The notes below the pieces were generated by a model, which was not told the DNA's origin, ran no database searches, and saw nothing but the letters and a program-made list of their open reading frames with translations. Source: Mesorhizobium sp. NZP2298 (GTDB lineage Bacteria; Pseudomonadota; Alphaproteobacteria; Rhizobiales; Rhizobiaceae). Taken from it: a stretch of DNA of 64,000 bases. Location of the stretch: contig NZ_CP033365.1 in the NCBI RefSeq assembly GCF_013170825.1, positions 4,290,001 through 4,354,000 of the forward strand, given 5' to 3'. A program made the position numbers and the translations under genes. Positions 1 to 20,118 of the stretch are shown one piece after another. Each line of letters starts with the position of its first letter. Position 1 is the first letter of the stretch.

Positions 1-586
<586 letters not shown>

Positions 587-677: not shown

Positions 678-747
678 TCTTCTGTCCACAGAGGACTATG
701 TGCAAATAATTAAGGCGGTGCATTGGTCATCGCCAAGGGGAACGACG

Positions 748-1944
748 ATGAAATCTGTTGCTGTGGCCGCTTCGGCCGCAATCGCCTTTCTATTGCCTAT
801 GGCCGGCGTGCGCGCCGAAGAGCCGATCAAGATCGGGTTCGCCATCGCGGAATCCGGCTGGCTTTCGAACTACGACAGCGCGCCTTTCAAAGCGGCGGTC
901 ATGAAGATCGAGGAGATCAACAAGGCTGGCGGGCTGCTGGGACGTCAGATCGAATATTCTGTCATGGACACCAAGACGGACCAGGCTCGCGCTGCAACTG
1001 TCGGCGCGCAGCTCGTCGATGGCGGCGTCGACATGCTGGTCGTCTCCTGTGACTACGATTTTGGCGCCCCGTCGGCGCTCGCCGCCAAGCAGGCTGGCAA
1101 GATCGCCTTCAGCCTGTGCGCCGCCGATCCGAAGATGGGCGTCCAAGGCGTCGGCCCACTCACCTTCACGGCCAACAGCGCGGCGCAGTCGGAAGGCATC
1201 GCGATTGCCGAATATGCCCAGAAGAAGATGAACCTGAAGTCAGTCTACGTGCTCGAAGACCTGACGATCGAATACAACAAGTCGGCCTGCGCCGGGTTCC
1301 GGGCGGCCTGGGTCGCGGGTGGCGGCGAGGAAACGATCCTCGGCAACGACACCTTCAAGAACGACGACCCGTCGATCGCCTCGCAGATCACCCGCCTCAA
1401 GGGGCTTGCAAAACAGCCGGACGCGGTCTTCGTCTGCTCGTTCACGCCGGGTGGCGCTTCCGCCGTGCGCCAGCTGCGCGCCGCCGGCATCGACCAGCCG
1501 ATCCTCGCCAACACTGCGATGGTCGACAATTATTGGCTCAACGCCGTACCGGGCCTGAAGGATTTTTACCTGCCCGCCTTCATGTCGCTTTACGGCGATG
1601 ACCCGCGGCCGGAGATGAACAAGTTCCTTGAAAGCCACAAGGCGCGTTACGGCGAGCCGCCGGTCTCCTCCTACTCGGTTCTGGGCTACAGCCTCATCGA
1701 GCAGTGGGCGTACGCAGTCGAGCAAGCGAAGACGACTGAATCCGAAGCCGTGGTCGGCGTCATGAACTCCTTCAAGGACCAGCCGTTCACGGCCGGCCCG
1801 ACCTCGTTTACCGATCAGCTGCATATCCAGGTCGACCGCCCCTGGCTGATCATGAAGGTCGAGAACGGCTCCTTCCATGCCGTCGAGGTCTACCGGAACT
1901 CGTTCAAGCCGGACATGAAGCTCCTGTTCCGCGTCGGTCAGTAA
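748..1944 (+). CDS. ABC transporter periplasmic substrate-binding protein (LivJ type)
   Basis: This 398-residue protein is the periplasmic receptor of the LIV-type transporter. The start at 748 is chosen because AAGGGG precedes it at a good distance and because it gives a clean signal peptide (MKSVAVAASAAIAFLLP, cleavage near GVRAEE). The mature protein has the type 1 periplasmic-binding fold pattern: IKIGFAIAESG at the start, then INKAGGLLGRQIEY, the mark of Leu/Ile/Val and amide-binding receptors. It heads the livJ-livG-livH-livM series. The following hydrolase and GABA catabolism genes suggest a small amide or lactam ligand, but no ligand-binding residue allows a firm assignment. Confidence 0.9.
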   Translation: MKSVAVAASAAIAFLLPMAGVRAEEPIKIGFAIAESGWLSNYDSAPFKAAVMKIEEINKAGGLLGRQIEYSVMDTKTDQARAATVGAQLVDGGVDMLVVSCDYDFGAPSALAAKQAGKIAFSLCAADPKMGVQGVGPLTFTANSAAQSEGIAIAEYAQKKMNLKSVYVLEDLTIEYNKSACAGFRAAWVAGGGEETILGNDTFKNDDPSIASQITRLKGLAKQPDAVFVCSFTPGGASAVRQLRAAGIDQPILANTAMVDNYWLNAVPGLKDFYLPAFMSLYGDDPRPEMNKFLESHKARYGEPPVSSYSVLGYSLIEQWAYAVEQAKTTESEAVVGVMNSFKDQPFTAGPTSFTDQLHIQVDRPWLIMKVENGSFHAVEVYRNSFKPDMKLLFRVGQ

Positions 1945-1957
1945 CCGACTGCGATCC

Positions 1958-1983
1958 GCCGGCCGCATGGTGGTGCGGCTGGC
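1958..1983 (+). other. Intercistronic hairpin after the livJ receptor gene
   Basis: A 10-base arm (GCCGGCCGCA) and a near-complementary arm with one mismatch surround a TGGTGG loop, 14 bases after the livJ stop. There is no T-run, so it is more likely an RNA-stabilising or partial-termination structure that would favour receptor over ATPase expression, a common arrangement in ABC uptake operons. Confidence 0.5.
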
Positions 1984-2039
1984 AGAACCAAATCTCCTGG
2001 AAAATTCACAGCCGAGCTTACGGATAGGTCTCGCCCGAT

Positions 2040-2810
2040 ATGTCACGCCCATCGAAAAGATCGGGATCGAAAGAACGGCTGGAAGCCCGCGGTGTTGCCG
2101 TCGCCTTTGGCGGCATCCGGGCGCTCAACGGGGTCGACCTCGAACTCAGCCGCGGCGAAGTCCTCGGCCTCATCGGCCCGAACGGCGCCGGCAAGACGAC
2201 GATGGTCAATGTGCTGAGCGGCTTCCAGCGGCCGACGAGCGGCAGCATCCGCCTCGATGGCATCGACGTGTCGCGGCTGACTGCCCGCAAGATCGCCCAG
2301 GCCGGCATCGGCCGAAGCTTTCAGGCGGCCCGGCTGTTCCGGACAATGACGGTGGAGCAGAACCTCTCCGTTGCGGCGATCGGCGGCGGGCTGTCTCGTC
2401 GGGAGGCCCGGGAGCGGGCGCTCGACATCCTCGACTGGATGGGCCTCGCGGAGAAGGCCGATCACCGTTGCGACAGTCTTTCCTATGGCGACGAGCGGCG
2501 CGTCGGCATTGCCCGGGCACTCGCCTTGCAGCCGTCCTTCGCGCTGCTCGACGAGCCGGCTTCCGGCATGAACGACGCTGAGTGCGAGGCGCTGATGGAA
2601 GTCATCGCCGAGCTGCCGGCCCGCTTCGGCTGCGGCGTGCTGCTGATCGAACACAACATGAAGGTGATCATGGGGGTGTGCCAGCGCATCCATGTGCTCG
2701 ATGGCGGGCAGAGCCTCGCCGAAGGCTCGCCGCAGGATATCCGGATGAACCCCGCCGTTCGCCGCGCCTATCTGGGCGAAAAAGCGGCCGACAGCACACT
2801 CGCGATCTAG
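2040..2810 (+). CDS. livG: Branched-chain amino acid-type ABC transporter ATPase LivG
   Basis: This 256-residue ATPase is the LivG partner. Walker A is GPNGAGKTT near residue 43, followed by the GIGRSFQAARLF Q-loop region typical of LivG. The ABC signature is altered to LSYGDERRVGIARAL and Walker B is FALLDEPASGMN. The C-terminal IEHNMKVIMGVCQRIHVLDGG segment is diagnostic for LivG. It lies 95 bases after livJ and 11 bases before livH. No strong ribosome-binding site precedes ATG 2040, so the exact start is less certain than the identity. Confidence 0.94.
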   Translation: MSRPSKRSGSKERLEARGVAVAFGGIRALNGVDLELSRGEVLGLIGPNGAGKTTMVNVLSGFQRPTSGSIRLDGIDVSRLTARKIAQAGIGRSFQAARLFRTMTVEQNLSVAAIGGGLSRREARERALDILDWMGLAEKADHRCDSLSYGDERRVGIARALALQPSFALLDEPASGMNDAECEALMEVIAELPARFGCGVLLIEHNMKVIMGVCQRIHVLDGGQSLAEGSPQDIRMNPAVRRAYLGEKAADSTLAI

Positions 2811-2821
2811 GACCGGACGCC

Positions 2822-3736
2822 ATGGCCAACATCGTTCAAGTTCTCGTCGATGCCATCGCGCTGGGCAGCCTGTATGCCCTTGTCGCGTTGGCGATCGGCC
2901 TCGTCTTCGGCGTCATGCGGCTCGTCAATTTCGCGCAGGCCGACTATATCACCATCGGCGCCTATGCGCTGGTCGTGCCCACGGCGAGCGTCACGCCGCC
3001 GTTGCTGCTCGGTGCGCTTCCCGCCGCCCTCATGATCGGCGGCGTGCTTTTCGTGGTTGTCGTGCTGGCGCTGCTGACGGAGCGCGTCGCCTTCCGACCG
3101 CTGCGCAATTCCAACCCGTCGACGCTGCTCATCTCGTCCTTCGCCGTCAGCTATTTCCTGCAGAACCTCGTCATGCTCATCCATACCGGCCGGCCTAAAT
3201 CGGTCGGGATCGGGCAGGGTCTCGCAAACGCGGTGGAAATCGGTAGCGTGCGCGTTCCGGGCGTGCAGCTCCTGACCATGGGCGTCACCGCCGGCCTGCT
3301 CGTCGCGCTGGTTCTCTTCCTCAAGAAGACACCGCTCGGCATCCAGATGCGGGCAGCGGCGGAGAACTTCCAGATGGCCCGGCTGCTCGGTATGCCGGCG
3401 AACCGGGTGATCGCGCTCGCCTTTGCCATTTCGGGCCTGCTCAGCGGTGTGGTCTCCCTGCTGCTCACGATCCAGACGGGCACGCTCGACCTGCGCATGG
3501 GCCTGATGCCCGTCGTCTACGGCTTCTTCGCTACCGTCATCGGCGGCATGGGCTCGCTGCCGGGGGCAGCACTCGGCGGGTTCCTCGTGGGTGTCGCCAG
3601 TGTGCTCCTGCAAACCTACCTGCCGGCCGATCTGCGCCCCTTCCGCGATGCCGGTGTGTTCACGCTCGTCATCCTGATCCTCCTCGTCCGCCCGCAAGGC
3701 CTGATCGTCACCAGCGCCGCTAAGGAACGTGTGTAA
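2822..3736 (+). CDS. livH: Branched-chain amino acid-type ABC transporter permease LivH
   Basis: This 304-residue inner-membrane permease begins with a helix containing GSLYALVALAIGLVFGVMRLVNFAQAD, the conserved LivH N-terminus, and has about eight hydrophobic segments. The cytoplasmic coupling region reads RAAAENFQMARLLGM, followed by the conserved FAISGLLSG helix, and the GGMGSLPGAALGGFLVG segment near the C-terminus is also family-typical. The start at 2822 follows the livG stop by 11 bases and the stop codon overlaps the livM start by one base (TAATG), so translation is probably coupled. Confidence 0.94.
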   Translation: MANIVQVLVDAIALGSLYALVALAIGLVFGVMRLVNFAQADYITIGAYALVVPTASVTPPLLLGALPAALMIGGVLFVVVVLALLTERVAFRPLRNSNPSTLLISSFAVSYFLQNLVMLIHTGRPKSVGIGQGLANAVEIGSVRVPGVQLLTMGVTAGLLVALVLFLKKTPLGIQMRAAAENFQMARLLGMPANRVIALAFAISGLLSGVVSLLLTIQTGTLDLRMGLMPVVYGFFATVIGGMGSLPGAALGGFLVGVASVLLQTYLPADLRPFRDAGVFTLVILILLVRPQGLIVTSAAKERV

Positions 3737-4797
3737 TGAAGAGCAAGACCATGCCATCCCTTGCCGCGATCGGCCGCTTCTGGTTTCCGGTGCTGGCGCT
3801 TGTCGTGCCGCTCGCGCTCATCGTCGTGGTCACCGGCCACTTCGGCGGTCTCTCCCTGCAGCGCACCGTCATCGAAATGCTGATCAGCATCGTGATCGTC
3901 GTCGGGCTTTACGTCTTCGTCGGGAATTCCGGCATTATTTCCTTCGGCCATGCCACCTTCATGGCGATCGCAGCCTATGCCTCGGCCTGGCAGACCTGCT
4001 GCGAGATGCTGAAGCCGATCACCATGTCTGGCCTGCCGCATTTCCTGCGCGACCAGAGCATCCCGCTGCTGCCTTCCGCCGTCGTCTCGGTGCTGCTCGC
4101 CGGCGCCGCCGCTTTCCTCACCGGCCTCGTCATCATGCGGCTCACGGGCCTTGCTGCGTCGATCTCCACGCTTGCCGTGCTCTTCATCCTGAACGTGGTC
4201 TATTCCAACTGGGACAGCGTCACCATGGGCTCTGCCTCGATCGTCGGCCTGCCGACCTATGTGACGGCCTGGCTTGCGCTCATCTGCGCCGTTCTCGCGA
4301 TCGTCATCGCCTATCTCTACCAGATTTCCGCCTTCGGCCTTGCTATCCGGGCGACGCGGGAAGACGAGGTCGCGGCCGCCGCGTCGGGCATCTCGCTCTA
4401 CTGGTCGCGGCTCATCGCCTTCACGCTCTCGGGCTTTCTGGTCGGCCTCGGCGGCGTGTTGCAGGCGCATTACCTCGGCACCGTGTCGATCAACAATTTC
4501 TTCCTGAGCTTCACCTTCCTCGCGCTCGCCATGCTCATCGTCGGCGGCATGGGCAGCCTTGCCGGCGCGGTGGTCGGCGTCGTCGTCATCACGGTGATGA
4601 TCGATATCTTCCGTCGCCTCGAAAGCGGGATCTCGATCGGCGGCGAGCAGTGGTCGCTGCCGGCGGGAACGCAGGAGCTTATCATCGCGGGCTTTATGCT
4701 GTTGATACTGGTCTTCCGCAAAGACGGGATCATGGCAGGGCGAGAAATAGGCTTGCCGCAGCAGCTACAGCGCGAGAAGGGGCTCATCAATGGCTAA
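3736..4797 (+). CDS. livM: Branched-chain amino acid-type ABC transporter permease LivM
   Basis: This 353-residue permease is the LivM partner of LivH. It carries the LivM landmarks GNSGIISFGHATFMAIAAYA near the N-terminal third, the coupling segment RATREDEVAAAASGI, and GGMGSLAGAVVGVVVI near the end. About nine membrane segments are apparent. It starts on the last base of the livH stop and overlaps the following GntR gene by eight bases, so the transporter and regulator are one transcription unit. Confidence 0.94.
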   Translation: MKSKTMPSLAAIGRFWFPVLALVVPLALIVVVTGHFGGLSLQRTVIEMLISIVIVVGLYVFVGNSGIISFGHATFMAIAAYASAWQTCCEMLKPITMSGLPHFLRDQSIPLLPSAVVSVLLAGAAAFLTGLVIMRLTGLAASISTLAVLFILNVVYSNWDSVTMGSASIVGLPTYVTAWLALICAVLAIVIAYLYQISAFGLAIRATREDEVAAAASGISLYWSRLIAFTLSGFLVGLGGVLQAHYLGTVSINNFFLSFTFLALAMLIVGGMGSLAGAVVGVVVITVMIDIFRRLESGISIGGEQWSLPAGTQELIIAGFMLLILVFRKDGIMAGREIGLPQQLQREKGLING

Positions 4798-5491
4798 CAA
4801 TCTCTTCAATACAGACGAGCCAATCGGCATCATCGACCACCGGATGCTGTCCGACCAGGTCTCGACGTTACTCGTGCGCGAACTGATCTTCGGCCGGCTC
4901 CAGCCCGGCCAGCGTATCAACGAAGCGGAACTGGCCCGCCAGCTCGGGATCAGCCGCAATCCCATCCGCGAGGCGATACGCCGGTTGGAGGAGCGTGGCC
5001 TGCTCGTCGCGGTTCCCCGCAAGGGCACCTTCGTTCGCACTTTCCTGCACAGCGATATCGATGAGATCTTCTCCTTCCGCGTGGTCGTCGAGCGTTTCGC
5101 GATGGAACAGGCGCTGCCGCAGATGACGGATGCCGACATCGACCGCATCGCCGGTTTCGTCGATGCCATGGTCGCGGCCGCCAATGCCAATGACGAGATC
5201 GCGCTTGTCGAGAACGACCTCGCCTTCCACCTCGAGATCTGCCGGCTGTCGAAGAACCGCCAGACGCTGCACGCCTTCACCAACATCCAGGCGGAAGTAC
5301 AGATGCTGATCACGATGGCGGAACGCCAGTTCGAGAGCCAGATGGCGGCGGCCGTCGATCACTGGCCGGTCGTCGAGGCGCTTCGCACCCGCAATCCCCA
5401 AAAGGCGATGGACGCCATCCGCGATCATATCCGCGATTCCTGGCGTCACCTGCTTGAAGCTTACGACCGGGAAAAACCCCGCTCGTCCTGA
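4790..5491 (+). CDS. GntR-family transcriptional regulator with FCD domain
   Basis: This 233-residue protein has an N-terminal winged helix (residues about 25-85) with the GntR pattern ELARQLGISRNPIREAIRRLEERGLL, followed by a helical FCD ligand-binding domain of the FadR/VanR subgroup. The LAFHLEICRLSKN stretch supplies one of the metal-binding histidines of FCD domains. Its coding frame overlaps the end of livM, and the hydantoinase genes begin 26 bases downstream. Regulators of this class placed inside an operon usually repress it and respond to the substrate or an intermediate, so local control of this catabolic cluster is the natural inference. No operator could be identified with confidence. 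Confidence 0.88.
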   Translation: MANNLFNTDEPIGIIDHRMLSDQVSTLLVRELIFGRLQPGQRINEAELARQLGISRNPIREAIRRLEERGLLVAVPRKGTFVRTFLHSDIDEIFSFRVVVERFAMEQALPQMTDADIDRIAGFVDAMVAAANANDEIALVENDLAFHLEICRLSKNRQTLHAFTNIQAEVQMLITMAERQFESQMAAAVDHWPVVEALRTRNPQKAMDAIRDHIRDSWRHLLEAYDREKPRSS

Positions 5492-5517
5492 TCCTATCCA
5501 TGAGAAATGAGGACATA

Positions 5518-7548
5518 ATGCCTGACACGAAAATCATCGGCATCGACATCGGGGGAACGTTCACCGACTTCGTTTCCTACGATGCGGCGACCGGTACCAT
5601 CGAAAACTGGAAGAACCTGACAACACCCTCCGAACCGATCGAAGGCGTGCTCCAGGGGCTCGCGCAGGTAGAGGATGTCACAAGCGTCGACAAGATCCGT
5701 CTCGGCACGACGATCGCCACCAACGCGCTGCTGACGAGGCGCGGCGCGAAGGTCGCCTATGTCACGACCACCGGTTTTCGTGATGTTCCCTTCATCCAGC
5801 GCGGCGATCGCCGCAGTCACTACGACATTACCTGGATCAAGACCAAGCCGTTGATGAAGCGCGCCGACACCTATGAGATCGGCGGGCGTTTCAGCGCCAA
5901 GGGCGAGCTTGTCACGGCGCTCGATGAGGCGGCCGTGCGCGAGGTGGCCGCAACGATCAAGGCCGACGGCACGATTGAGGCAATCGCTGTCTGCACGCTG
6001 TTCTCCTATATCGATCCGAGCCACGAGCAGCGCATCCGCGACATCCTTGCGGAAGAATTGCCCGGCATGCCGATCTCGATCTCTTACGAGGTGCTGCCGA
6101 AATGGAAGGAATACGACCGCGCCTCGACCACGATTGCCGACGCCTATCTGAAGCCCATCGTCTCCGACAATTTCCACCGCATGCAGAAGCGCCTCGATGG
6201 CATCGGCATCGGCGACAGGATCGGCGTGATCAAGTCGAACGGCGGTGAATCGACGCTGAAAGGTGCTGCAGAAGCGCCGGTGCAGATGACGCTCTCCGGC
6301 CCGACCGGTGCGGTCGTCGCCACCCGCGTCCTCTCCGAACTCACCGGCATCAAGAACCTCGTCACCTTCGACATGGGTGGAACCTCGACCGATTGTTCGA
6401 CCGTCGTGGACGGCATGGAGCATGTGACGACGAGCTTCGAGATCGAATGGGGCTTGCCGATCCAGATCCCGATGATCGACATCCACACGATCGGCGCCGG
6501 CGGCGGCTCCATCGCCTGGATCGACAAGGGCGGCATGTTGCGCATGGGCCCGCAATCGGCCGGCGCTGCCCCGGGGCCCGCCTGCTACGGCCGTGGCGGC
6601 GAGAATGCCACGGTGACGGACGCCAATGTCGTGCTCGGCCGCATCAACCCCGACTACTTCCTCGGCGGCAAGATGAAGCTCGACGCCGGGGCGGCGCATC
6701 GCGCGGTCAAGACAATCGCCGACCAGCTCGGCCTCGATGTCGATGCTGCTGCCTTCGCCATGGTGCAGATCGCCAACAACAACATGCTGGGCGCACTGCG
6801 TGCCGTTCTCCTCCAGCGCGGCCTTGATCCGCGCGATTTCTCGCTCGTCGCCTCGGGCGGGGCGGGACCGGTGCATATCTGCGACCTGATGGATATTTCC
6901 GGCATTCCGCAAGGCATCGTGCCGAACTATCCCGGCCAGTTCTCCGCCTTCGGCTTCATCATGACCGATGCGCGTGTTGACCGGCATCGCACGGTGCAGC
7001 AGATCTCGAAATACTTCGACGGTGCCCGCGCCACGGCGGCGATGACGGAACTGGTGGATGGCGCCATCGCCGAGCTGGTCTCCCAGGGCTACCAGCAGAA
7101 GGTGGAGATCTACCGCTCCATCGAGGCCCGCTACTTCGGCCAGAACCACGAGCTGGAACTGAGCTTCCCGGCCAACCAGTTCACTGAGGAGACCATAGCA
7201 AGCCTCTGGGAACGCTTCCACGAGGAGCACCAGAACCGCTTCGGCTTCTCCATTCCGGGTGAGACCATCGAGACGGTCAATCTCAAGGTCGTCGCCGTCG
7301 CCGTCTCCGAAAAGCCGAAGATGCGGGAGCTCGAAAAGGGCGAAGGCACGCCGGCGTCCTCGGGCAGCCGCAAGGTACGCTTCGAGGACGGCTGGCACGA
7401 GGTGAAGACCTACGACCGCGGCACGTTCAAGCAGGGGCAGACCGTCGCCGGTCCCGCCATTGTGGAGGAAAGCGCCTCCGTCACCATTTTGCAGCCGAAA
7501 CAGACGCTCCGCGTCGACCGGCTCGGCAATCTGATCATTTCGGCCTGA
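5518..7548 (+). CDS. Hydantoinase/oxoprolinase A-type subunit (ATP-dependent cyclic-amide hydrolase)
   Basis: This 676-residue protein belongs to the HyuA/oxoprolinase A family, the ATP-binding subunit of enzymes that open hydantoins, 5-oxoproline or lactams, or that carboxylate ketones. The actin-like phosphate loops are both present: GIDIGGTFTDFV at residues about 8-19 and DMGGTSTDCS near residue 285. The start at 5518 is chosen over 5500 because AGGA sits six bases upstream and the ATP loop then lies at the usual distance from the N-terminus. It is followed 11 bases later by the B subunit. The exact substrate is not readable from sequence. The GABA aminotransferase and succinate-semialdehyde dehydrogenase downstream favour a gamma-lactam such as 2-pyrrolidinone (inference). 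Confidence 0.9.
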   Translation: MPDTKIIGIDIGGTFTDFVSYDAATGTIENWKNLTTPSEPIEGVLQGLAQVEDVTSVDKIRLGTTIATNALLTRRGAKVAYVTTTGFRDVPFIQRGDRRSHYDITWIKTKPLMKRADTYEIGGRFSAKGELVTALDEAAVREVAATIKADGTIEAIAVCTLFSYIDPSHEQRIRDILAEELPGMPISISYEVLPKWKEYDRASTTIADAYLKPIVSDNFHRMQKRLDGIGIGDRIGVIKSNGGESTLKGAAEAPVQMTLSGPTGAVVATRVLSELTGIKNLVTFDMGGTSTDCSTVVDGMEHVTTSFEIEWGLPIQIPMIDIHTIGAGGGSIAWIDKGGMLRMGPQSAGAAPGPACYGRGGENATVTDANVVLGRINPDYFLGGKMKLDAGAAHRAVKTIADQLGLDVDAAAFAMVQIANNNMLGALRAVLLQRGLDPRDFSLVASGGAGPVHICDLMDISGIPQGIVPNYPGQFSAFGFIMTDARVDRHRTVQQISKYFDGARATAAMTELVDGAIAELVSQGYQQKVEIYRSIEARYFGQNHELELSFPANQFTEETIASLWERFHEEHQNRFGFSIPGETIETVNLKVVAVAVSEKPKMRELEKGEGTPASSGSRKVRFEDGWHEVKTYDRGTFKQGQTVAGPAIVEESASVTILQPKQTLRVDRLGNLIISA

Positions 7549-7559
7549 GGAGTACCATC

Positions 7560-9257
7560 ATGGACTTCGTTACGATGAACATTCTGGAATCCAGCATGGT
7601 CTCTCTCTGCAAGGAGATGGGGATCGTGTTGATGAAGACGTCCTATTCGACGATCTTCAACGAGGCGCTCGACTTCACTTGCGGGCTTGCCGACATGAAC
7701 GGCGACATGATCGCGGTCGCCGACTATTGCCCGGCGCAGATCGGCGGCATGCCGTTGCTCGTCAAATCCTGCCTCAAGGAAATCCCGATCGACGAGATCG
7801 AGGAGGGCGACGTCATCCTGCACAACGACCCCTATCGCGGGGGCCTGCACACGCCGGAGCACACCTTCTTCAAGCCGATCTTCGTCGATGGCGAGATCAT
7901 GGGCTTTGCTGTCGCCATCGGCCATATCGCCGAAGTCGGCGGCATGGCGCCTGGCGGCTTCTGCGGCGAGGCGACGGAAATTTTCCAGGAGGGCCTTCGC
8001 ATTCCGCCGGTCAAGATCAAGAAGCGCGGCAAGGACAATATCGAGGTCTGGAAGCTGCTTCTCGCCAACGTGCGTACGCCGCGCGTCAACTATGGTGATC
8101 TGCGCGCCCTCATCGCCGCCGTCGACCTCGGCGAAAAGCAGATGACGCAAATCTACCAGAAGTACGGCAAGGAGAAAATCAAGGAGACGGTCAACGACTT
8201 GCTGCTCTATTCGGAGCGCCGCATGCGTGCCGAACTGGAGGCGATCCCGGACGGCATCTATGCCTTCTCCGACAAGATTGAGAGCGACGGTATCGACGCC
8301 GACCGCACTTATACGGTCGCTGTCGAAGTGCATAAGCGCGGCGGCGAGATCATCGTCGACTATCACGGTTCCTCGCCGCAGGCCTCCGGCCCGATCAACG
8401 CAACGCTCGGCGTTGCCACATCGGCGGCCTACAACGCCGTGCTACACATGACCGACCCGACGATCCCGCGCAATTCCGGCTGCTTCCGGCCGATCCGCGT
8501 CATGGCGCCGCCCGGCACCATCGTCAACGTGGACTTCCCCGCGCCGGAAGTCGGCGGCAACACCGAAACCCATCCACGCATCGTCGGCACGATCCTCGGC
8601 GCCATGGCCCCGGCGATCCCGAACCGGGTGATGGCGGCGGAGGGTGCCACCCACTGCAACTTCGTCTTCGGCGGCGTCGATGCCGACACAGGCGAGTATT
8701 TCGCCTGTTACGACCTCGAAGCGGTCGGCTGGGGCGGCCGCGCCTTTGCCGATGGCAATGACGGCGTCGACTCGATCAACGGCAATTGCCGCATCACGCC
8801 GGTCGAAGTCTACGAGACGCGCTTCCCCTGGCGCATCGAAAGCCTCGCCTTCAACGTCGATGCCGGCGGTGCCGGCGAATATCGTGGTGGGGTCGGCTAT
8901 TCCAAGCAGATGCTGTGCCTCAACGACGAAATCATCTGCTCGCAGATGACTGACCGGCACTTGCTGGCCCCCTGGGGCCTGAATGGCGGCACGGAAGGCG
9001 GCCTCGGCGCGACGCTGGTCATGAAGTCCGGGCGGAGCGACTGGCAGACGATGCGCGAAGCCTATGGCAAGGCCTCGACCAGCCGCTACTCCAACGTCTC
9101 CATTCGCCGCGGCGATCGCGTGCGGCTCGTCACCCCTGGCGGCGGCGGCTACGGCGAGCCTGCAAAGCGCGATCCGGCGGCGGTCGCGGAGGATGTCCGC
9201 GAGGGCTACGTCTCGAAGGCGGCCGCTCACAAACACTACGGCTATCAGGAGGCCTGA
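7560..9257 (+). CDS. Hydantoinase B-type subunit
   Basis: This 565-residue protein is the HyuB/oxoprolinase B partner. Family features visible are the N-terminal LESSMVSLCKEMGIVLMKTSYSTIFNEALDF region, the metal-site-like segments HNDPYRGGLHTPEH and GHIAEVGGMAPGG, and the C-terminal glycine-rich TPGGGGYG. Length is normal for the family. It lies 11 bases after the A subunit with AGGAG just upstream, and four bases before a small cysteine protein. A and B subunits of this family assemble into one enzyme in the cytoplasm. Confidence 0.9.
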   Translation: MDFVTMNILESSMVSLCKEMGIVLMKTSYSTIFNEALDFTCGLADMNGDMIAVADYCPAQIGGMPLLVKSCLKEIPIDEIEEGDVILHNDPYRGGLHTPEHTFFKPIFVDGEIMGFAVAIGHIAEVGGMAPGGFCGEATEIFQEGLRIPPVKIKKRGKDNIEVWKLLLANVRTPRVNYGDLRALIAAVDLGEKQMTQIYQKYGKEKIKETVNDLLLYSERRMRAELEAIPDGIYAFSDKIESDGIDADRTYTVAVEVHKRGGEIIVDYHGSSPQASGPINATLGVATSAAYNAVLHMTDPTIPRNSGCFRPIRVMAPPGTIVNVDFPAPEVGGNTETHPRIVGTILGAMAPAIPNRVMAAEGATHCNFVFGGVDADTGEYFACYDLEAVGWGGRAFADGNDGVDSINGNCRITPVEVYETRFPWRIESLAFNVDAGGAGEYRGGVGYSKQMLCLNDEIICSQMTDRHLLAPWGLNGGTEGGLGATLVMKSGRSDWQTMREAYGKASTSRYSNVSIRRGDRVRLVTPGGGGYGEPAKRDPAAVAEDVREGYVSKAAAHKHYGYQEA

Positions 9258-9261
9258 GACC

Positions 9262-9453
9262 ATGAAGTTTTCGCTGAACGGGCTTTACATTGAAAGCTAC
9301 ACCAAATGCGCCAATTGCGGCGTGCTGATCTACGAGGCCTCGGCCGAGGATTCCGCCCGCAGGAAGACGCATGACGGGAGCATCTATTGCTCTCAGGAAT
9401 GCGTCGACTGGAAGATCGACCGGGACGCCCGCCGCGCCAAGGCCGCAGTCTAG
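9262..9453 (+). CDS. 63-residue four-cysteine (zinc-ribbon-like) protein in the hydantoinase operon
   Basis: This very small protein (63 residues) starts at ATG 9262, four bases after the hydantoinase B stop. It contains CANC (residues 14-17) and, 31 residues further on, CSQEC, a spacing that could hold a zinc ion or other metal. The rest is hydrophilic with a basic C-terminus. It does not look like a regulator or an enzyme. Its tight placement suggests a third subunit or assembly factor. Some relatives of this enzyme class, acetone and acetophenone carboxylases, do carry small zinc-binding subunits, but homology to those is not shown here. Coding is supported by codon use, the tight spacing and the motif. 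Confidence 0.72.
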   Translation: MKFSLNGLYIESYTKCANCGVLIYEASAEDSARRKTHDGSIYCSQECVDWKIDRDARRAKAAV

Positions 9454-9465
9454 CAATCGATGCGC

Positions 9466-9492
9466 CGGCCCCGTCCGTCAGGGATGGGGCCG
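9466..9492 (+). terminator. Hairpin between the small cysteine protein gene and the aminotransferase gene
   Basis: An 11-base arm beginning CGGCCCCGTCC pairs with GGATGGGGCCG with one G-T wobble around a short loop. No T-run follows, so it may attenuate or stabilise the transcript rather than terminate fully. Confidence 0.45.
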
Positions 9493-9550
9493 ACAACTTC
9501 AAGCGCCGCGACAAGCGCCGCGCCATAACAAACTGTCCAAGGAGATACCC

Positions 9551-10855
9551 ATGTCCACGAACGCTGCCTTCACGGCGCGGCGCGCAGCCGCCATTCCGGC
9601 CGGCCTGTCGAAACATCTCGACGTCTATATCGAGAAGGCGGAGAACGCCGAACTGTGGGACGTCGAAGGCAAGCGCTACATCGATTTTGCCGCTGGCATC
9701 GCCGTCAACAACACCGGCCATCGCCATCCGAAGGTGGTCGAGCGCGTGCGCAACCAGCTCGACAAGGTCACGCACACCTCGTTCCAGACCACGCCCTATA
9801 TCGACTATGTCACTGTCTGCGAGAAGCTGAACAAGCTGGTGCCGGGTGACTTCCCGAAGAAGACTTTTCTCGTCTCCACCGGCGCCGAGGCCGTGGAGAA
9901 CGCCGCCAAGATTGCCCGCGCCGCGACCGGCCGCTCGGCCTTTGTCGCCTTCTCCGGTGCCTTCCATGGCCGCACGCTGATGGCGATGACGCTGACCGGC
10001 AAGACCAATCCTTACAAGGCCGGCTTCGGCCCGCTGGTGCCGGATGTCTTCCACCTGCCGTTCCCGATCCCCTATCACGGCATTTCCGAGCAGGAATCCC
10101 TGACCGCCCTCGACCGCTTCTTCCGCTCCGAGGTCGATCCGACGCGCGTCGCCGGCATTTTCGTCGAACCGGTGCAGGGCGAGGGCGGTTTCTACCCGGC
10201 GCCCGTCACGTTCCTGCGCACGCTGCGCGAGATTTGCGACAGGCACGGCATCCTGTTGATCGCCGACGAGATCCAGACGGGCTTTGCCCGAACCGGAAAA
10301 ATGTTCGCGATGGAACATGCCGGCGTTGCCGCCGATATCGTCGTCATGGCCAAGGGCCTTGGCGGCGGCTTCCCGATCGCCGCCGTCACCGGCCGCGCCG
10401 ATGTCATGGACAAGATCCCGATGGGCGGCGTCGGCTCCACCTTTGCCGGTAACCCGCTATCCTGCGCCGCGTCGATCGCGGTGCTTGAGATCATCGAGGA
10501 CGAGAAACTGATCGACCGCGCCAACGAGGTCGGCCGCCGGCTGAAGGCGGTCTTCGAGGGCTGGCAGGAGGGCAACGAATTTTCCTGCATCGGCGAGGTC
10601 CGCGGCGTTGGTGCCATGGTGGCGATCGAATTCGTGCGTGACCGCGAGACGCGCCAGCCCTGGCCTGAACTGGTGAAAGCCATCACGCACACCGCTGCCG
10701 AAAAGGGCCTGCTGCTGCTCTCCTGCGGCGTGCATGGCAATGTCGTGCGTGTGCTGACGCCGCTGACCATTCCCTTCGACCATCTCGACGAAGGCATTGC
10801 CATCCTCAAGGACAGCCTGCGGGCGGCACTGGAAAAGGTGGAGCGCGGACAATGA
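9551..10855 (+). CDS. gabT: 4-aminobutyrate-type class III aminotransferase
   Basis: This 434-residue PLP enzyme moves the amino group of GABA or a similar omega-amino acid to 2-oxoglutarate. It matches GabT along its length: STGAEAVENAAKIAR for cofactor phosphate binding, FHGRT, EPVQGEGGF, IADEIQTGFARTG, and the Schiff-base lysine in MAKGLGGGFP at residue 268, the same number as in the E. coli enzyme. AAGGAGA precedes ATG 9551. Its stop overlaps the next start (ATGA), so it is coupled to the semialdehyde dehydrogenase. In this operon it would take the product of lactam opening; related substrates such as 5-aminovalerate are possible. Confidence 0.92.
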   Translation: MSTNAAFTARRAAAIPAGLSKHLDVYIEKAENAELWDVEGKRYIDFAAGIAVNNTGHRHPKVVERVRNQLDKVTHTSFQTTPYIDYVTVCEKLNKLVPGDFPKKTFLVSTGAEAVENAAKIARAATGRSAFVAFSGAFHGRTLMAMTLTGKTNPYKAGFGPLVPDVFHLPFPIPYHGISEQESLTALDRFFRSEVDPTRVAGIFVEPVQGEGGFYPAPVTFLRTLREICDRHGILLIADEIQTGFARTGKMFAMEHAGVAADIVVMAKGLGGGFPIAAVTGRADVMDKIPMGGVGSTFAGNPLSCAASIAVLEIIEDEKLIDRANEVGRRLKAVFEGWQEGNEFSCIGEVRGVGAMVAIEFVRDRETRQPWPELVKAITHTAAEKGLLLLSCGVHGNVVRVLTPLTIPFDHLDEGIAILKDSLRAALEKVERGQ

Positions 10856-12306
10856 CGCTCGCGCTGCTTCACGACAAGGCCTTCATCGATGGCGCCTGGG
10901 CCGGGGCGGACACGGGCTCGACCTTCGAGGTTTGCAATCCGGCGACGGGCGCGGTTATCGCGCGCGTCGCCGATCTTGCGACCGCCGACGTCGAGCGGGC
11001 GATCCTTGCGGCCGAGCGCGCGCTCGTGGACTGGCGCCAGCGCCCGGCCAAGGAACGGGCCAAGCTACTGCGCGCCTGGTTCGACCTGATCACTGCCCAT
11101 ACCGAGGATCTTGCCCAGATGATCACGGCCGAGCAGGGCAAGCCGCTCTACGAGGCACGCGGCGAGGTCGCCTTCGGCGCCTCCTTCGTCGACTGGTTCT
11201 CGGAAGAAGCCAAACGCGTCTATGGCGACGTCATCCCGTCGGCCGGTCGTGACCGGCGTTTCATCGTGTTGAAACAGCCGATCGGCGTTTGCGCTGCCAT
11301 CACGCCCTGGAATTTCCCGCTGGCGATGATCACCCGCAAGGCGGCGGCCGCACTCGCCGCCGGCTGCACCATGGTCGTCAAACCCTCCGAGGAAACGCCG
11401 CTGACGGCGCTCGCAATGGCCGAGCTTGCCCGGCAGGCCGGCATTCCGGCCGGCGTGCTCAACATCGTGCCGTCGAAGGATGCCGCCGGCATCGGGCGCC
11501 TGCTCTGCGAGCATCCGGTGATCCGAAAACTTTCCTTCACCGGCTCGACAGCAGTCGGCAAGCTCCTGATGCGGCAGTGCGCCGATACGCTCAAGAAACT
11601 GTCGCTGGAACTCGGCGGCAATGCACCGTTCATCGTCTTCGACGACGCCGACCTCGATCTCGCCATCGCCGGTGCTATCGCCTCGAAATTCCGCAATTCC
11701 GGCCAGACCTGCGTCTGCACCAACCGCATCTATGTGCAGGACGGCATCCACGCTGCCTTCGTCGCAAAGCTGACCGAGCAGGTTGCTAGCCTGAAAGTCG
11801 GTGACGGCGCCGCGCCGGAGGTGGTGCAGGGGCCGCTCATCAACGCAAAAGCCGTGGCGAAAGTGGTGGAGCTTGTCGGCGACGCCGTGGATCGCGGCGC
11901 GCGCATCGAGACTGGCGGCAAGCCGCATGCGCTCGGCGGCACCTGGTTCGAACCGACTGTGCTGAGCGGAATGCAGGCGCCGATGCGGCTGGCGCAGGAA
12001 GAAGCCTTCGGTCCGATCGCTCCGGTCTTTCGCTTCAAGGACGAAGCGGAAGTCATCCGCCTCGCCAACGACACGCGCTACGGCCTGATGGCCTATTTTT
12101 ACGCCCGTGATGTCAACCGCATCTGGCACGTCCTCGAAGAATTGCAGTTCGGCATGGTTGGCATCAACGAAGGCCTGATCTCCACCGAGCTTGCCCCGTT
12201 CGGCGGCATCAAGGAAAGCGGTTTTGGCCGCGAAGGCTCCAAGTACGGCATCGAGGAATATGTTGAGCTGAAATATGCCTGCTTCGGCGGGCTGAAGGTG
12301 GGGTGA
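10852..12306 (+). CDS. gabD: NAD(P)-dependent succinate-semialdehyde dehydrogenase
   Basis: This 484-residue aldehyde dehydrogenase oxidises succinate semialdehyde to succinate. It has PWNFPLAMITRK, the FTGST nucleotide-binding motif, the general-base segment LELGGNAPF, and the catalytic cysteine in SGQTCVCTNR (Cys287). These match the GabD subfamily. It overlaps the gabT stop by four bases, so the pair forms a GABA-to-succinate unit. If the aminotransferase acts on 5-aminovalerate the substrate would be glutarate semialdehyde instead; sequence alone does not separate these. Confidence 0.92.
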   Translation: MTLALLHDKAFIDGAWAGADTGSTFEVCNPATGAVIARVADLATADVERAILAAERALVDWRQRPAKERAKLLRAWFDLITAHTEDLAQMITAEQGKPLYEARGEVAFGASFVDWFSEEAKRVYGDVIPSAGRDRRFIVLKQPIGVCAAITPWNFPLAMITRKAAAALAAGCTMVVKPSEETPLTALAMAELARQAGIPAGVLNIVPSKDAAGIGRLLCEHPVIRKLSFTGSTAVGKLLMRQCADTLKKLSLELGGNAPFIVFDDADLDLAIAGAIASKFRNSGQTCVCTNRIYVQDGIHAAFVAKLTEQVASLKVGDGAAPEVVQGPLINAKAVAKVVELVGDAVDRGARIETGGKPHALGGTWFEPTVLSGMQAPMRLAQEEAFGPIAPVFRFKDEAEVIRLANDTRYGLMAYFYARDVNRIWHVLEELQFGMVGINEGLISTELAPFGGIKESGFGREGSKYGIEEYVELKYACFGGLKVG

Positions 12307-12358
12307 GGCATGGCGCTTATTATTCGCCAGACAGGAGCAGGCCCAGAAAGGGACTAAG

Positions 12359-13048
12359 ATGCCAGATCGAAAAGTCGCCCTCGTCGTCGGTGCATCGCGA
12401 GGCCTGGGTCTCGGGCTCGCCCATGCCTTCGTCTCACGCGGATGGGAGGTGATAGCGACCGTACGCAGCGCGCATGGCCGCGGCGCCCTGGAAACCCTTG
12501 CCGGCAATGGGTTGGTTTCCATTGCGCACATGGACATCAACAAACCAGAAGACGTAACGGCCCTTCGGAAGATGCTCTCGGCGCGCGCGCTCGACGTTTT
12601 GTTCGTCAATGCGGGCGTTGCTATTGACCCTTCCATTGCCGCGGAAACCGTCTCGACACAGGACTTCGTGGACGTCATGGTCACGAACGCGCTTTCTCCG
12701 CTGCGCGTCATTGGAGCGCTCCACGATTTGGTCGATCCCGAAGGCGTTGTCGCAGCGATGTCTTCGGACATGGGCAGCATCAACGACAATGCCGGCGGCG
12801 GATGGGAGATCTATCGCGCCAGCAAGGCGGCCCTCAATCAGATGATGAAAAGTTTCGCGATCCGCAAAGGAGACGGGCGAACCTATATCGCCATGTCGCC
12901 GGGATGGGTACGCACGGAGATGGGTGGCAATGGGGCGCCGCTCGACATAGAGACGAGCGCCGCGGGAATTGCCGAGACGCTGATCGCCCGTTCGGGCGCT
13001 GGTGGCATTCATTTCGTCGATTTCCGCAACCAACCCCTTGCTTGGTAG
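12359..13048 (+). CDS. Short-chain dehydrogenase/reductase
   Basis: This 229-residue protein is a classical SDR. The Rossmann motif GASRGLGLG is at residues 11-19, NAG at about 85-87, and the catalytic YxxxK appears as YRASK near residue 156. The substrate-determining loop is short. It lies 52 bases after gabD on the same strand with AGAAAGGG upstream, so it may be the last gene of the catabolic unit, but it has no necessary role in a lactam-to-succinate route. The substrate is unknown. Confidence 0.82.
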   Translation: MPDRKVALVVGASRGLGLGLAHAFVSRGWEVIATVRSAHGRGALETLAGNGLVSIAHMDINKPEDVTALRKMLSARALDVLFVNAGVAIDPSIAAETVSTQDFVDVMVTNALSPLRVIGALHDLVDPEGVVAAMSSDMGSINDNAGGGWEIYRASKAALNQMMKSFAIRKGDGRTYIAMSPGWVRTEMGGNGAPLDIETSAAGIAETLIARSGAGGIHFVDFRNQPLAW

Positions 13049-14045: not shown

Positions 14046-14926
14046 TCGATCCGCAAGGGCTATGGATTTTGGGTCGTGCCGTTATCGACACCGCCCTCAT
14101 GGTGCTCTGGGGGTGTTGCGCGTTCTTTTCTGCCGCTACGCCGCCATCCCTCTGCGCCCTCCTGATCCGGCGCTTTTCAGGGGTCTCCGCAATTTGCACA
14201 ATGATGGTGGCGGCAGGTGTCCTGGTCGTCCTTCCGGCGCAGATCGCTGTCGTAACCGATGATTGGCGCGCGACCGTTGACCCGCGAACGCTCTGGTCGT
14301 TTCTCACGCTGACGACCGGTGGACGGGCATGGGATATGCTCGCCGCAGGTTCGTTACTGCTTGGACTGGCCCGTTGGCTCATGCCACGTCGCCAAACTCT
14401 TGCGGCGGTTTTGGCCGGCTGTTCCTTGGCGAGCCTTTCCCTGACAGGGCACGCAGCAATGAGGACAGGCTTTGAGCGCACTCTTCATACCGGCATCGAC
14501 ATCGTCCATGTTCTTTCCGCCGGAGCATGGTTTGGCGGTCTTGTTGGTTTTGTATTTGTCATGCGGGCGGCACGCGACGTTGCTCATCGTCCTCAAGCAT
14601 TGGTCGCGCTGTCCCGATTCTCTACGCTAGGCCACGTTGCCGTCGCACTGGCGATCTTGAGCGGCGTGGCCAATAGCTTGCTCATCCTCGGTCATTTGCC
14701 GACAGATTGGCGGTCGCCCTATCAGGCAAGGCTCCTCATCAAGATCGGACTTGTCGCGATCATGTCGCTCGCGGCCATCGTAAATCGCTATGTCTTCGTT
14801 CCCCTCTTGCGGAGAAAGCGCCGCGAGGCAGAAACCGCGTTGCTAGCCGGCGCTGCCTTCGAGCTCTTGCTTGGCGCGATCGTTATTGCACTGGTTGCCG
14901 CCTTCGGAACCATGGATCCGTCTTGA
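14042..14926 (+). CDS. copD: Copper resistance membrane protein CopD
   Basis: This membrane protein of about 294 residues has eight or so hydrophobic segments and the CopD-family histidines in LTGHAAM and TGIDIVHVLSAGAWFGGL, and the C-terminal region RLLIKIGLVAIMSLAAIVNRY is also typical. CopD is thought to pass copper across the inner membrane together with CopC. The start is uncertain. TTG at 14042, overlapping the copC stop (TTGA), keeps the first membrane helix intact, whereas the first ATG in frame at 14099 would cut into it. The frame is open further upstream to 13400, but that part is out of phase under copC and not protein-like. Confidence 0.82.
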   Translation: MIDPQGLWILGRAVIDTALMVLWGCCAFFSAATPPSLCALLIRRFSGVSAICTMMVAAGVLVVLPAQIAVVTDDWRATVDPRTLWSFLTLTTGGRAWDMLAAGSLLLGLARWLMPRRQTLAAVLAGCSLASLSLTGHAAMRTGFERTLHTGIDIVHVLSAGAWFGGLVGFVFVMRAARDVAHRPQALVALSRFSTLGHVAVALAILSGVANSLLILGHLPTDWRSPYQARLLIKIGLVAIMSLAAIVNRYVFVPLLRRKRREAETALLAGAAFELLLGAIVIALVAAFGTMDPS

Positions 14927-15209
14927 TCCACGTGCCTCAGGGTTCAAAAACGGCAATCACAAATCTGTTATCGAATAGATTGCTCACCCTGAAGGACAAC
15001 GTCCTTCGAAGTATCACAGGGCGTGCGTCGCAAAAGCCTATCTGATCGCGCGACAGGGGCGTTAGCGCCGACTGAGAGAGAAAGCTTTCGCAAAGGGCTG
15101 CATGGATTCTAGTTGACGGCATCCAAGGCCGCCCGTGTTGCATCTTCATCTTAATACTGCAGGCGACTGGGCCCGGTTCGGCATCGCCAAGAAAAATTTC
15201 AGTTCGCGC
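14927..15209. other. Intergenic stretch between copD and the DUF305 gene
   Basis: No gene with a ribosome-binding site or recognisable motif was found in this stretch, which is less GC-rich than its surroundings. The only clear signal is the promoter-like element at its right end, annotated separately. Confidence 0.5.
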
Positions 15210-15238
15210 GGAATAATCCGCCGTCTGCGGTGTCTACC
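15210..15238 (+). promoter_or_regulatory. ECF-type promoter upstream of the DUF305 gene
   Basis: GGAATAA at 15210-15216, a 14-base spacer and TGTCTACC at 15231-15238 repeat the copC upstream element exactly in spacing. The start codon is 43 bases from the second box, close to the 46-base distance at copC. Confidence 0.6.
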
Positions 15239-15273
15239 CTTCTGAACTCTTCGAGAGAGAACAGGAGATAACG

Positions 15274-15777
15274 ATGACCGCCTTATTTCGCAGTACCTGG
15301 ATTCTGGCAACCACATCGCTGCTCACCGTCGTCTCGGTGTCGGCCTTTGCCCAGGATGTGCCAGCCCACCATCACCAGACCGTATCCGGCCTGACGGACG
15401 AAGCACCGTTTCTACAGGAAAACGACGCAGCCATGGTGAAAATGATGAACGACATGGCGGTCAAGCCGACAGGTGATGTCAATCGCGATTTCGTCGAGAT
15501 GATGCTCCCGCATCACCAGGGAGCGATCGACATGGCCGTCGCGTACCTGCGCTACGGCAATAACGAGCAGCTCAAGCGGATCGCGCAAGAAATCATTGTC
15601 GATCAGCAGCAGGAGATCGCGGCCATGCGCATGGCGCTTGGCGACCCGCTTCCCGCCTCCGACGCGGTTCCGACGCAGGTCGATCCCAAGGATGCGAAGA
15701 CAACACAGAGCCCTCACGAAGAGACGTCATCGAAGGCCCCGGCCATGCAGATGATGATGATGAAGCCCGCCAACTGA
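15274..15777 (+). CDS. Secreted DUF305 protein, His/Met-rich
   Basis: This 167-residue protein has a signal peptide ending near VSAFAQ, then AHHHQ, and the DUF305 core with the hallmark MMLPHHQGAIDMA at residues about 74-86. A run of methionines (MQMMMMKP) lies at the C-terminus. DUF305 proteins are periplasmic ferritin-like helical proteins often found in copper or metal loci; the paired histidines and the methionines are consistent with metal binding. AGGAGA precedes ATG 15274. The beta-propeller gene follows after 13 bases. Precise function is not known. Confidence 0.85.
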   Translation: MTALFRSTWILATTSLLTVVSVSAFAQDVPAHHHQTVSGLTDEAPFLQENDAAMVKMMNDMAVKPTGDVNRDFVEMMLPHHQGAIDMAVAYLRYGNNEQLKRIAQEIIVDQQQEIAAMRMALGDPLPASDAVPTQVDPKDAKTTQSPHEETSSKAPAMQMMMMKPAN

Positions 15778-15790
15778 AAAGGACCGAGAC

Positions 15791-17245: not shown

Positions 17246-17252
17246 GTGAAAC

Positions 17253-17278
17253 TGGCCCGCCTCGCTTGGGGCGGGCCA
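17253..17278 (+). terminator. Hairpin between the beta-propeller and sigma factor genes
   Basis: A perfect nine-base inverted repeat (TGGCCCGCC and GGCGGGCCA) with an eight-base loop lies eight bases after the propeller stop. It lacks a T-run and may only partly terminate, which would give low read-through into the sigma gene. Confidence 0.55.
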
Positions 17279-17300
17279 ATCCACGGGTAGCAGATGTGTG

Positions 17301-17825
17301 ATGGATGATCTTCTTTTCCAGGTCGAGCCGATGATCCCGGCATTACGACGCTATGCCCGCGGTCTCGTTCACGATGCGGTCGCTGCCGACGATCTCGTGC
17401 AGGACTGCCTTGAACGCGTGATCTCTCATTGGCACCGGCGCCGAAATGATGACGCCCGCACCTGGGTGTTCGCTATCCTGCATAATCTTGCAGTCAGCCG
17501 GCTGCGGCAGGCCGCCCGGCGCGGTCCGCATGTTGCCATAGAAGAGATCGCAGATGATCTCATGGCGCATCCGCCGACACAGGAGGACGACCTTGCAAGA
17601 GCGGACGTCGTCTCGGCGATCCAACAACTGTCGGAAGAACAGCATAGCGTGCTGCTGCTGGTAGCTGTCGAAGACCTTAGCTACGCCCAGGTCGCCGAAG
17701 TATTGGCGATCCCCGTCGGAACCGTGATGTCGCGACTGTCGCGCGCGCGCGAGCGTCTGCGGCAGATATTGGAAAGTCCCGCCAGGGGGGCTAGACCGGG
17801 CTCGCATCTGCGGAGGGTGAAATGA
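17301..17825 (+). CDS. ECF-family RNA polymerase sigma factor
   Basis: This 174-residue protein has the two-domain ECF layout. Sigma region 2 lies at about residues 10-75 (DLVQDCLERVISHWHRR and WVFAILHNLAVSRLR) and region 4 at about 105-160 with the helix-turn-helix DLSYAQVAEVLAIPVGTVMSRLSRAR. ATG 17301 is used; GTG 17298 directly in front is an alternative. Its stop overlaps the start of the membrane protein that follows (ATGA), the normal arrangement for an ECF factor and its anti-sigma. It is the best candidate to read the GGAATAA/TGTCYAC promoters upstream of copC and the DUF305 gene. Confidence 0.93.
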   Translation: MDDLLFQVEPMIPALRRYARGLVHDAVAADDLVQDCLERVISHWHRRRNDDARTWVFAILHNLAVSRLRQAARRGPHVAIEEIADDLMAHPPTQEDDLARADVVSAIQQLSEEQHSVLLLVAVEDLSYAQVAEVLAIPVGTVMSRLSRARERLRQILESPARGARPGSHLRRVK

Positions 17826-18598: not shown

Positions 18599-18838
18599 CC
18601 GTCAACTGCCCTGAACCACCCCCGGTGGACGGGACAGACGCTGGACGGGTTGGGGGGCAGGGGCCCGAGATTGATGCCGCAAGCGAGCCGATGTGCCGAA
18701 AATCGTTTCGCGCGGACTGGCGCCGCGCTGCGGCACAGGAGCGGGCGGAGATTCCAAGCATCATCTTTAATTTGAACGGAACGACTGCTTCATGATCCAT
18801 TCGACTGGAAGGACCGACCGGTCTCGGCCCCAACGCGG

Positions 18839-19365: not shown

Positions 19366-19488
19366 AACGACAAAGTTACGGTCAACGGCTGGTTCGCTGG
19401 CCCAGGCAATGTCGTCGAGGCCATCAAATCCGGTGACGGCAGGGTGCTGCATTCGTCCGATGTCGCAACCCTGGTCGCCGCCATGGCA
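19366..19488 (+). pseudogene. Short fragment resembling the C-terminus of an RTX/haemolysin-type protein
   Basis: About 41 codons read NDKVTVNGWFAG, then VVEAIKSGDGRVL and TLVAAMA. The pattern of a WF followed by xxVExIxxxDGxxL is that of C-terminal segments of haemolysin-type calcium-binding proteins. It is joined directly to the TraA fragment on one side and to the integrase remnant on the other, with no start of its own. The match is by pattern only. Confidence 0.4.
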
Positions 19489-20007: not shown

Positions 20008-20118
20008 TTTTTCGTGTGCGCTCCGTGTGCACTGACAGAACGAAACGTGGCGAAAAGGGTCGTATTCTGGCGTAAAGAGGCGTATCCGCGATTGCGACTA
20101 ACGAATTGATGTAAAAAA

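Follow-up and report, generated by a model that had tools for sequence, protein, structure and literature searches.

The operon described here, in a Mesorhizobium genome, has its closest described counterparts in the caprolactamases CapAB and OplAB of Pseudomonas, which belong to the same alpha/beta enzyme family. The accessible part of the account for P. jessenii (PMC6061476) places capAB in a caprolactam cluster with genes for an omega-aminotransferase, 6-oxohexanoate dehydrogenase, the L-2-hydroxyglutarate oxidase LhgO, CsiD and CsiR. CapB binds metal through Asp41, His99, Asp102 and His124, the last three fully conserved, and its caprolactam pocket is very hydrophobic, with vicinal cysteines Cys410-Cys411 (Marjanovic et al., PMC8453981, accessible part). 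Acetone and acetophenone carboxylases (Acx, Apc) combine an alpha/beta core with a small gamma subunit that has four conserved cysteines and contacts the beta subunit, while hydantoinases and oxoprolinases are given as having no gamma subunit (Weidenweber et al., PMC5214803, accessible part). We analyzed a window of 64 kb from the 7.34 Mb single-contig genome of Mesorhizobium sp. NZP2298 (G000:C1:4290001-4354000), in which genes for two subunits of this family, HyuA and HyuB, are followed by one for a small four-cysteine protein, CysS. We put the probability at about 0.5 that this is a GntR-controlled operon for breaking down a polar lactam, perhaps a hydroxylated one, to an omega-amino acid and beyond.

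The features are listed by position in the window, except where stretch L037, which extends beyond it, is named.

2..586, minus strand (divergent): LivF-type ABC ATPase (Pfam ABC_tran), truncated at the window edge and complete at L037:9859-10587
L037:8624-9835, minus strand, outside the window and behind LivF: LhgO, L-2-hydroxyglutarate oxidase (NF008726)
682..691, plus strand: CTGTCCACAG, probable operator for GntR; a TTGAC box begins 33 bases before its first base
748..1944, plus strand: SBP, LIV-type substrate-binding protein (Peripla_BP_6)
2040..2810, plus strand: LivG-type ABC ATPase (ABC_tran and BCA_ABC_TP_C)
2822..3736, plus strand: LivH-type permease (BPD_transp_2); the Pfam match is given from 2816, and a codon check puts the ATG at 2822
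3736..4797, plus strand: LivM-type permease (BPD_transp_2)
4790..5491, plus strand: GntR/FCD regulator (GntR and FCD)
5500..7548, plus strand: HyuA, ATP-binding subunit (Hydant_A_N/Hydantoinase_A/Hydant_A_C; ATP motifs; PDB 7hk5, 444 bits)
7560..9257, plus strand: HyuB, metal-site subunit (Hydantoinase_B; PDB matches; active-site columns, with Glu100 at CapB Asp102)
9262..9453, plus strand: CysS, 63-residue four-cysteine protein, treble-clef-like, proposed third subunit (constancy, HyuB fusions, model)
9551..10855, plus strand: GabT-type omega-aminotransferase (Aminotran_3; TIGR00700 over cut-off)
10852..12306, plus strand: GabD-type semialdehyde dehydrogenase (TIGR01780 over cut-off)
12359..13048, plus strand: short-chain dehydrogenase/reductase (SDR), possible accessory member (adh_short; relatives in 9 of 28 related loci)

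The original prediction read the genes from transporter to dehydrogenase as a self-contained route from a cyclic amide to succinate. Its order of transporter, GntR regulator, HyuA, HyuB, small cysteine protein, GabT and GabD was confirmed by frames and Pfam/NCBIfam families, and every named gene from SBP through GabD is an intact open frame, positioned and ordered as stated. Neighbors in this series overlap or lie 4-97 bases apart, which makes a single operon likely. GabT scores 537 bits against TIGR00700 (GABAtrnsam, gamma-aminobutyrate (GABA) transaminase; cut-off 507) and GabD 695 bits against TIGR01780 (SSADH, succinate-semialdehyde dehydrogenase; cut-off 646), scores that do not by themselves show either substrate. 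LhgO reaches 598 bits against NF008726 (cut-off 299). The second transporter ATPase, LivF, runs divergently on the minus strand, beyond the limits of the original prediction.

A single scan of genome contigs, aimed at close relatives of HyuB, yielded 28 related loci, near-identical strains included, from alpha-, beta- and gammaproteobacteria; the closest named ones are Mesorhizobium. In all 28, the start of CysS lies 2-12 bases beyond HyuB, and CysS is the most constant partner of HyuB, a point overlooked when the small cysteine protein was first listed. The order LivF, SBP, LivG, LivH, LivM, GntR, HyuA, HyuB, CysS is kept in 18 of the 28, counting L027, whose CysS is 47% identical, or in 17 if 50% identity is demanded; gene order is conserved more than expected by chance. 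LIV genes stand directly before HyuA, with no GntR gene between, in L028, L030 and L035. Contig ends cut L019 and L020, the LIV set of L023 lies elsewhere, and no LIV genes occur within the stretches covered for L029, L031, L032 and L033. Downstream, GabT (at least 69% identical) follows CysS in 17 loci, and another class-III aminotransferase is found directly after CysS in L023 and after a GabD relative in L036. GabD is present at 89% identity or more in nine loci, with the L036 relative at 43%. The complete order with both GabT and GabD occurs in only nine loci, all Mesorhizobium, Shinella or one Rhizobium metagenome-assembled genome. The full order first described is thus the Mesorhizobium/Shinella form of a wider system. 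Judged by gene content, the core of that system is the HyuA-HyuB-CysS trio and not a pathway to succinate. The search in other genomes thus supported the transporter-to-CysS order, while the self-contained route to succinate proved not to be conserved.

CysS can also be joined to HyuB. Eight of 394 family genomes searched carry CysS, fused to the HyuB N-terminus in four of them; the fusion recurs in one Allorhizobium plasmid, in four database proteins and, by annotation, in six A. vitis plasmids. Among 919 plasmid records with any HyuB match, the 19 top-ranked for HyuB (at least 56.6%) coincide with the 19 in which CysS is present; eight HyuB records fall at 60-80% identity, seven of them among the 60 rows listed. 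CysS marks one HyuB clade. Its four cysteines, spaced CxxC..CxxxC, are invariant in all 45 rows of an alignment of the window protein with 44 of 56 homologs. The predicted model (pLDDT 86) is treble-clef-like and matches treble-clef proteins (ribosomal large-subunit chains, YacG and a TRASH domain) at low Z, maybe through a common arrangement only; identity to CysS is 12-17% in the two best rows, and we claim no shared function. The ribosomal chains are presumably of the L24e type. CysS matches no Pfam or NCBIfam family over threshold. Against Pfam at E 10 it gave sub-threshold matches only (acetyl-CoA carboxylase zinc ribbon, E 0.002-0.02), and its profile against PDB sequences gave chance-level matches only, the best at E 0.29. 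From its constancy and fusions we infer that CysS, probably a zinc-type protein, docks on HyuB as a third subunit.

Presence in 28 of 28 loci and fusion to HyuB speak against one of the family hydrolases without a gamma subunit. A small four-cysteine third subunit marks the acetone and acetophenone carboxylases, whose gamma subunit contacts beta where hydantoinases and oxoprolinases have none (PMC5214803, accessible part), and the trio could on this ground be a ketone-type carboxylase. We consider this very improbable. Even with E values up to 10 allowed, CysS gave no match to Acetone_carb_G (PF08882), and the 50 rows of the VIA-align list for the CysS model do not include acetone carboxylase gamma. 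The cysteine spacing of CysS differs from the CxxC..CxxC of Apc gamma (Cys22, 25, 75, 78). Acx and Apc have larger subunits: HyuA and HyuB, at 682 and 565 residues, are nearer to CapA (696) and CapB (581) than to Acx (717 and 776). The HyuB clade is also far from the acetone-carboxylase-type row of its own genome, L008. That paralog adjoins an acetone carboxylase gamma gene (G000:C1:276687-279169; PF08882 over cut-off), and both branches are present in this genome.

Two further observations concern the reach of the trio. In the haloarchaeon Halalkalicoccus jeotgali, a 49-residue CxxC..CxxxC frame (L058:7756-7905) overlaps the HyuA start; it is probably a CysS relative, and tblastn for CysS did not report it. 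Relatives of HyuB at 66-67% identity occur in the Firmicutes Compostibacillus and Peribacillus (P0173, P0177-P0179, P0182, P0183, P0185), among the 120 listed of 3717 matches (8000 candidates scored).

In a tree of HyuB proteins, a 43-row clade (support 100/99) falls outside L008 and the caprolactamase rows. The original prediction had asked whether the A and B proteins belong inside a carboxylase clade. HyuB, the subunit covered by the tree, falls outside the acetone-carboxylase row, which is the genome's own L008 and not Apc; rows L002-L005 have long branches and are placed unsurely. Among these, L004 is a 1229-residue fused paralog that we take, from its frame, to be oxoprolinase-like. Sixteen duplicate or cut rows were left out, one of them (L069) restored under another name, and the identical pairs L046/L014, L047/L036 and L048/L030 were kept.

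The best PDB match for both subunits is N-methylhydantoinase 7hk5 (444 bits for HyuA, 343 for HyuB). This enzyme and caprolactamase rank above the carboxylases for both, with carboxylase chains lowest. Such a match would suit a hydantoinase that turns 5-substituted or N-methylhydantoins into N-carbamoyl amino acids by opening the ring, as would an archaeal relative near creatininase-family and M20 genes and the presence of some of the polar pocket residues described below in other paralogs. This alternative is unlikely in our view: no N-carbamoylase occurs in the window operon or in the listed features of L053-L057 (whose tables are incomplete; other loci were not scanned), and the usual next gene encodes an aminotransferase, either GabT (17 of 28) or those of L023 and L036. 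The hydantoins first proposed as substrates are accordingly weakly supported. The closest solved relative also differs in build, 7hk5 being a single 1288-residue chain with Asp at the position of HyuB Glu100 and Gln at that of H122.

HyuA keeps its ATP motifs, and HyuB keeps D38, H97 and H122, the equivalents of CapB Asp41, His99 and His124. The remaining ligand, CapB Asp102, is replaced by Glu (Glu100) in 43 of 43 clade rows, whereas all seven paralogs in the genome have Asp. Positions that form the greasy pocket of CapB hold E35, H338, T364 and N367 in 43 of 43 rows and D385 in 42, and there are no cysteines at the two HyuB positions aligned with the vicinal Cys410-Cys411. HyuB is about 31% identical to CapB, and neither subunit reaches the 1000-bit caprolactamase cut-offs of NF050156/NF050157 (HyuA 530 bits, HyuB 319). 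The polar pocket argues against a plain lactam.

A plain lactam is nonetheless the most probable of the alternatives, though we hold it doubtful. In that case 2-pyrrolidinone or valerolactam would be opened to GABA or 5-aminovalerate, which GabT and GabD would convert to succinate or glutarate; both enzymes exceed the cut-offs for GABA transaminase and SSADH. With gamma-butyrolactam, OplAB formed no product or consumed about 4% of the substrate (PMC11033972, accessible part), and a CapB-bearing genome could use a second lactamase; CapB is present in 12 of the 28 related whole genomes, as against 25 of 394 family genomes. Lactam use in general, our preferred reading included, is supported by genuine caprolactamase genes that adjoin the trio in two genera not related to each other. 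In Shinella kummerowiae (L024), an AraC-type regulator gene and CapB-CapA follow the operon at 14898-19974, and in P. fluorescens PS833 (L029), AraC-CapA-CapB at 2550-7503 runs divergently from hyuA. Each of the four Cap subunits scores above its 1000-bit cut-off, and we take the AraC genes to be equivalent to P. putida OplR. Two things set a plain lactam back besides the pocket: it leaves LhgO without explanation, and GabD at 89% identity or more is confined to nine loci, with the distant relative in one more. These points leave 2-pyrrolidinone, the simplest substrate first suggested, with the same low standing.

A hydroxylated lactam would account for LhgO. The LivF-LhgO unit shares its regulatory region with the main operon, and LhgO therefore probably belongs to the same regulon. 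LhgO is the sole match in its genome at E 1e-60 (15 of 45 candidates scored). In the genus sample it is found in 4 of 4 genomes with CysS versus 12 of 115 others. Beside the divergent end or after CysS, the 28 loci carry LhgO in nine cases, a lesser LhgO-like FAD oxidase in four, an HD-domain oxygenase-like protein in five and an FMN hydroxy-acid-dehydrogenase-type protein in one. PhnZ, TmpB and MIOX are enzymes that act next to a hydroxyl. Entry of L-2-hydroxyglutarate from glutarate via CsiD was considered and rejected, because CsiD was found neither in the genome itself nor in 26 of the 28 related genomes; an alpha-hydroxy group in the substrate would explain LhgO instead. In Allorhizobium and R. 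ruizarguesonis, relatives are accompanied by LacI regulators and sugar-type transporters, together with a gene for an aminotransferase or an SDR, and altronate-dehydratase-type genes are near the R. ruizarguesonis relative and L052. Such neighbors would fit polar, hydroxylated substrates.

Several loci show other gene contexts. At L031:11831-15699, L029:11906-15697 and L027:1618-2268 and 11906-12748, genes for an HD-domain oxygenase-like protein and for a class II aldolase occupy the place taken elsewhere by GabT or LhgO. Alongside them, Pseudomonas loci L029 and L031 encode a 445-residue membrane protein without Pfam or NCBIfam match, presumably NCS1-like. Six stretches around LhgO from other Mesorhizobium genomes gave no clue to the substrate; L067 has the whole operon, and in L062 LhgO is accompanied by a GabD relative of 33% identity. 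In L063, what is left of a LivF gene (77% identical over 0.7 of its length) lies beside LhgO at 8911-10675, in a genome (G500) without a CysS match. A 152-residue frame is repeated on either side (2364-2822 and 14378-14836), and this may be a decayed copy of the locus; the stretch contains masked bases.

Of 25 LivF/SBP intergenic regions, 24 have an exact copy of the 10-base site CTGTCCACAG. The regions come from the window, from 21 of the 28 loci and from L053, L054 and L067. Regions with LivF or SBP missing or below 60% identity were left out (L019, L020, L023, L029, L031, L032, L033, L056). The exception, L030, lacks gntR and has two one-mismatch sites instead. Each of 500 shuffled 10-mers of the same letters occurred in at most 1 of the 25 regions. 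A TTGAC box begins 27-35 bases before the site in 22 of 24 regions. In the two P. fluorescens loci without LIV genes, hyuA and gntR are each preceded by a copy of the site, and in PS833 the copy ahead of hyuA lies between that gene and the divergent capB. Across loci, an exact site is present in 22 of 23 with gntR (the exception is L023) and in none of five without it, two of which are cut. The Fisher p of 6e-5 is a guide only because related genomes are not independent. The window contains one exact copy, and a 20-base form of the site has one zero-mismatch occurrence in the genome; the reversed control of that pattern also has one match, at up to 3 mismatches. CTGTCCACAG is a probable GntR operator, at which the regulator would bind and repress.

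We infer substrate and reaction from sequence. The LIV-type transporter would import a polar cyclic amide, and GntR would repress both divergent units from 682-691 until substrate or product is present. HyuA would bind ATP and activate the ring carbonyl, and the HyuB metal site, with the treble-clef CysS docked on it, would hydrolyze the activated ring. Ring opening would yield an omega-amino acid, from which GabT would take off the amine before GabD oxidizes the semialdehyde; LhgO, encoded outside the window, would handle the alpha-hydroxy acid. 3-Hydroxy-2-piperidone would give 2-hydroxyglutarate through GabT and GabD. For a hydroxylated delta-lactam, the hypothetical series would run through 5-amino-2-hydroxyvalerate, 2-hydroxyglutarate semialdehyde and 2-hydroxyglutarate to 2-oxoglutarate. 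2-Oxoglutarate, formed via 2-hydroxyglutarate, is the probable end product, either instead of succinate or besides it. The cyclic-amide pathway of the original prediction is thus a likely interpretation, with a coherent set of importer, regulator, ATP-dependent ring opener, omega-aminotransferase and semialdehyde dehydrogenase. Its hydantoins and its final step to succinate fared less well. As to succinate, LhgO in the divergent regulatory region points to 2-hydroxyglutarate, and GabD at 89% identity or more is limited to nine loci.

Several points weigh against the preferred reading as a whole. The pocket mapping was made at about 31% identity, at which single positions may be misaligned, and Glu or Asn also occurs at two pocket positions in other paralogs, so polarity is not unique to the clade. 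Hydroxy-acid genes are absent from 9 of 28 loci (including L019 and L020, which are cut upstream). The second FAD oxidase, the FMN enzyme, the HD proteins and the YdiJ-like protein of L036 score below NCBIfam cut-offs. LhgO could be a by-product scavenger, and CsiD, which might feed it from glutarate, was found in 2 of 28 related genomes and not in this one. The archaeal relative has an amine oxidase gene as well as creatininase-family and M20 genes nearby, which would suit hydantoins. Matches to the site with up to one mismatch number 3 in the window against 2.5 expected, which is no enrichment. The CapB association is downgraded because Shinella and its kin make up 6 of the 12 CapB-bearing genomes and because, in the family sample, CapB is found in 1 of 8 CysS genomes versus 24 of 386 others. 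Finally, we found no characterized member of the clade.

Elsewhere in the window, the only tRNA gene found is tRNA-Val (cac) at 46573-46647 on the minus strand. At 18893-20032, a P-loop frame has an integrase-like frame opposite, both identified by eye; this is perhaps a mobile-element remnant.

The original prediction knew of no described arrangement of this kind. The P. jessenii cluster is a partial precedent for the gene set (PMC6061476, accessible part), from which this locus differs in its LIV transporter, CysS, Glu for Asp102, the polar pocket and the lack of a CsiD match in the genome. New here are the third component CysS, Glu as a metal ligand, the conserved 10-base site and the tie to LhgO; in other respects the system is of a known kind. 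Our searches turned up no paper about the HyuB clade or about any small zinc protein that partners a hydantoinase, although subscription journals were thinly covered and absence is unproven. Lactams with five- or six-membered rings are highly stable, and no enzyme that cleaves gamma-butyrolactam well was known to Roth et al. (PMC11033972, accessible part). A distinct clade in alpha-, beta- and gammaproteobacteria, with a haloarchaeal relative and its own third component, is a candidate source of enzymes. That third component is the point likely to surprise specialists, and the natural CysS-HyuB fusions offer a simple test of the small part's role. If CysS is a subunit, it would be an exception to the statement, in the accessible part of PMC5214803, that a gamma subunit is absent from the hydrolases of the family.

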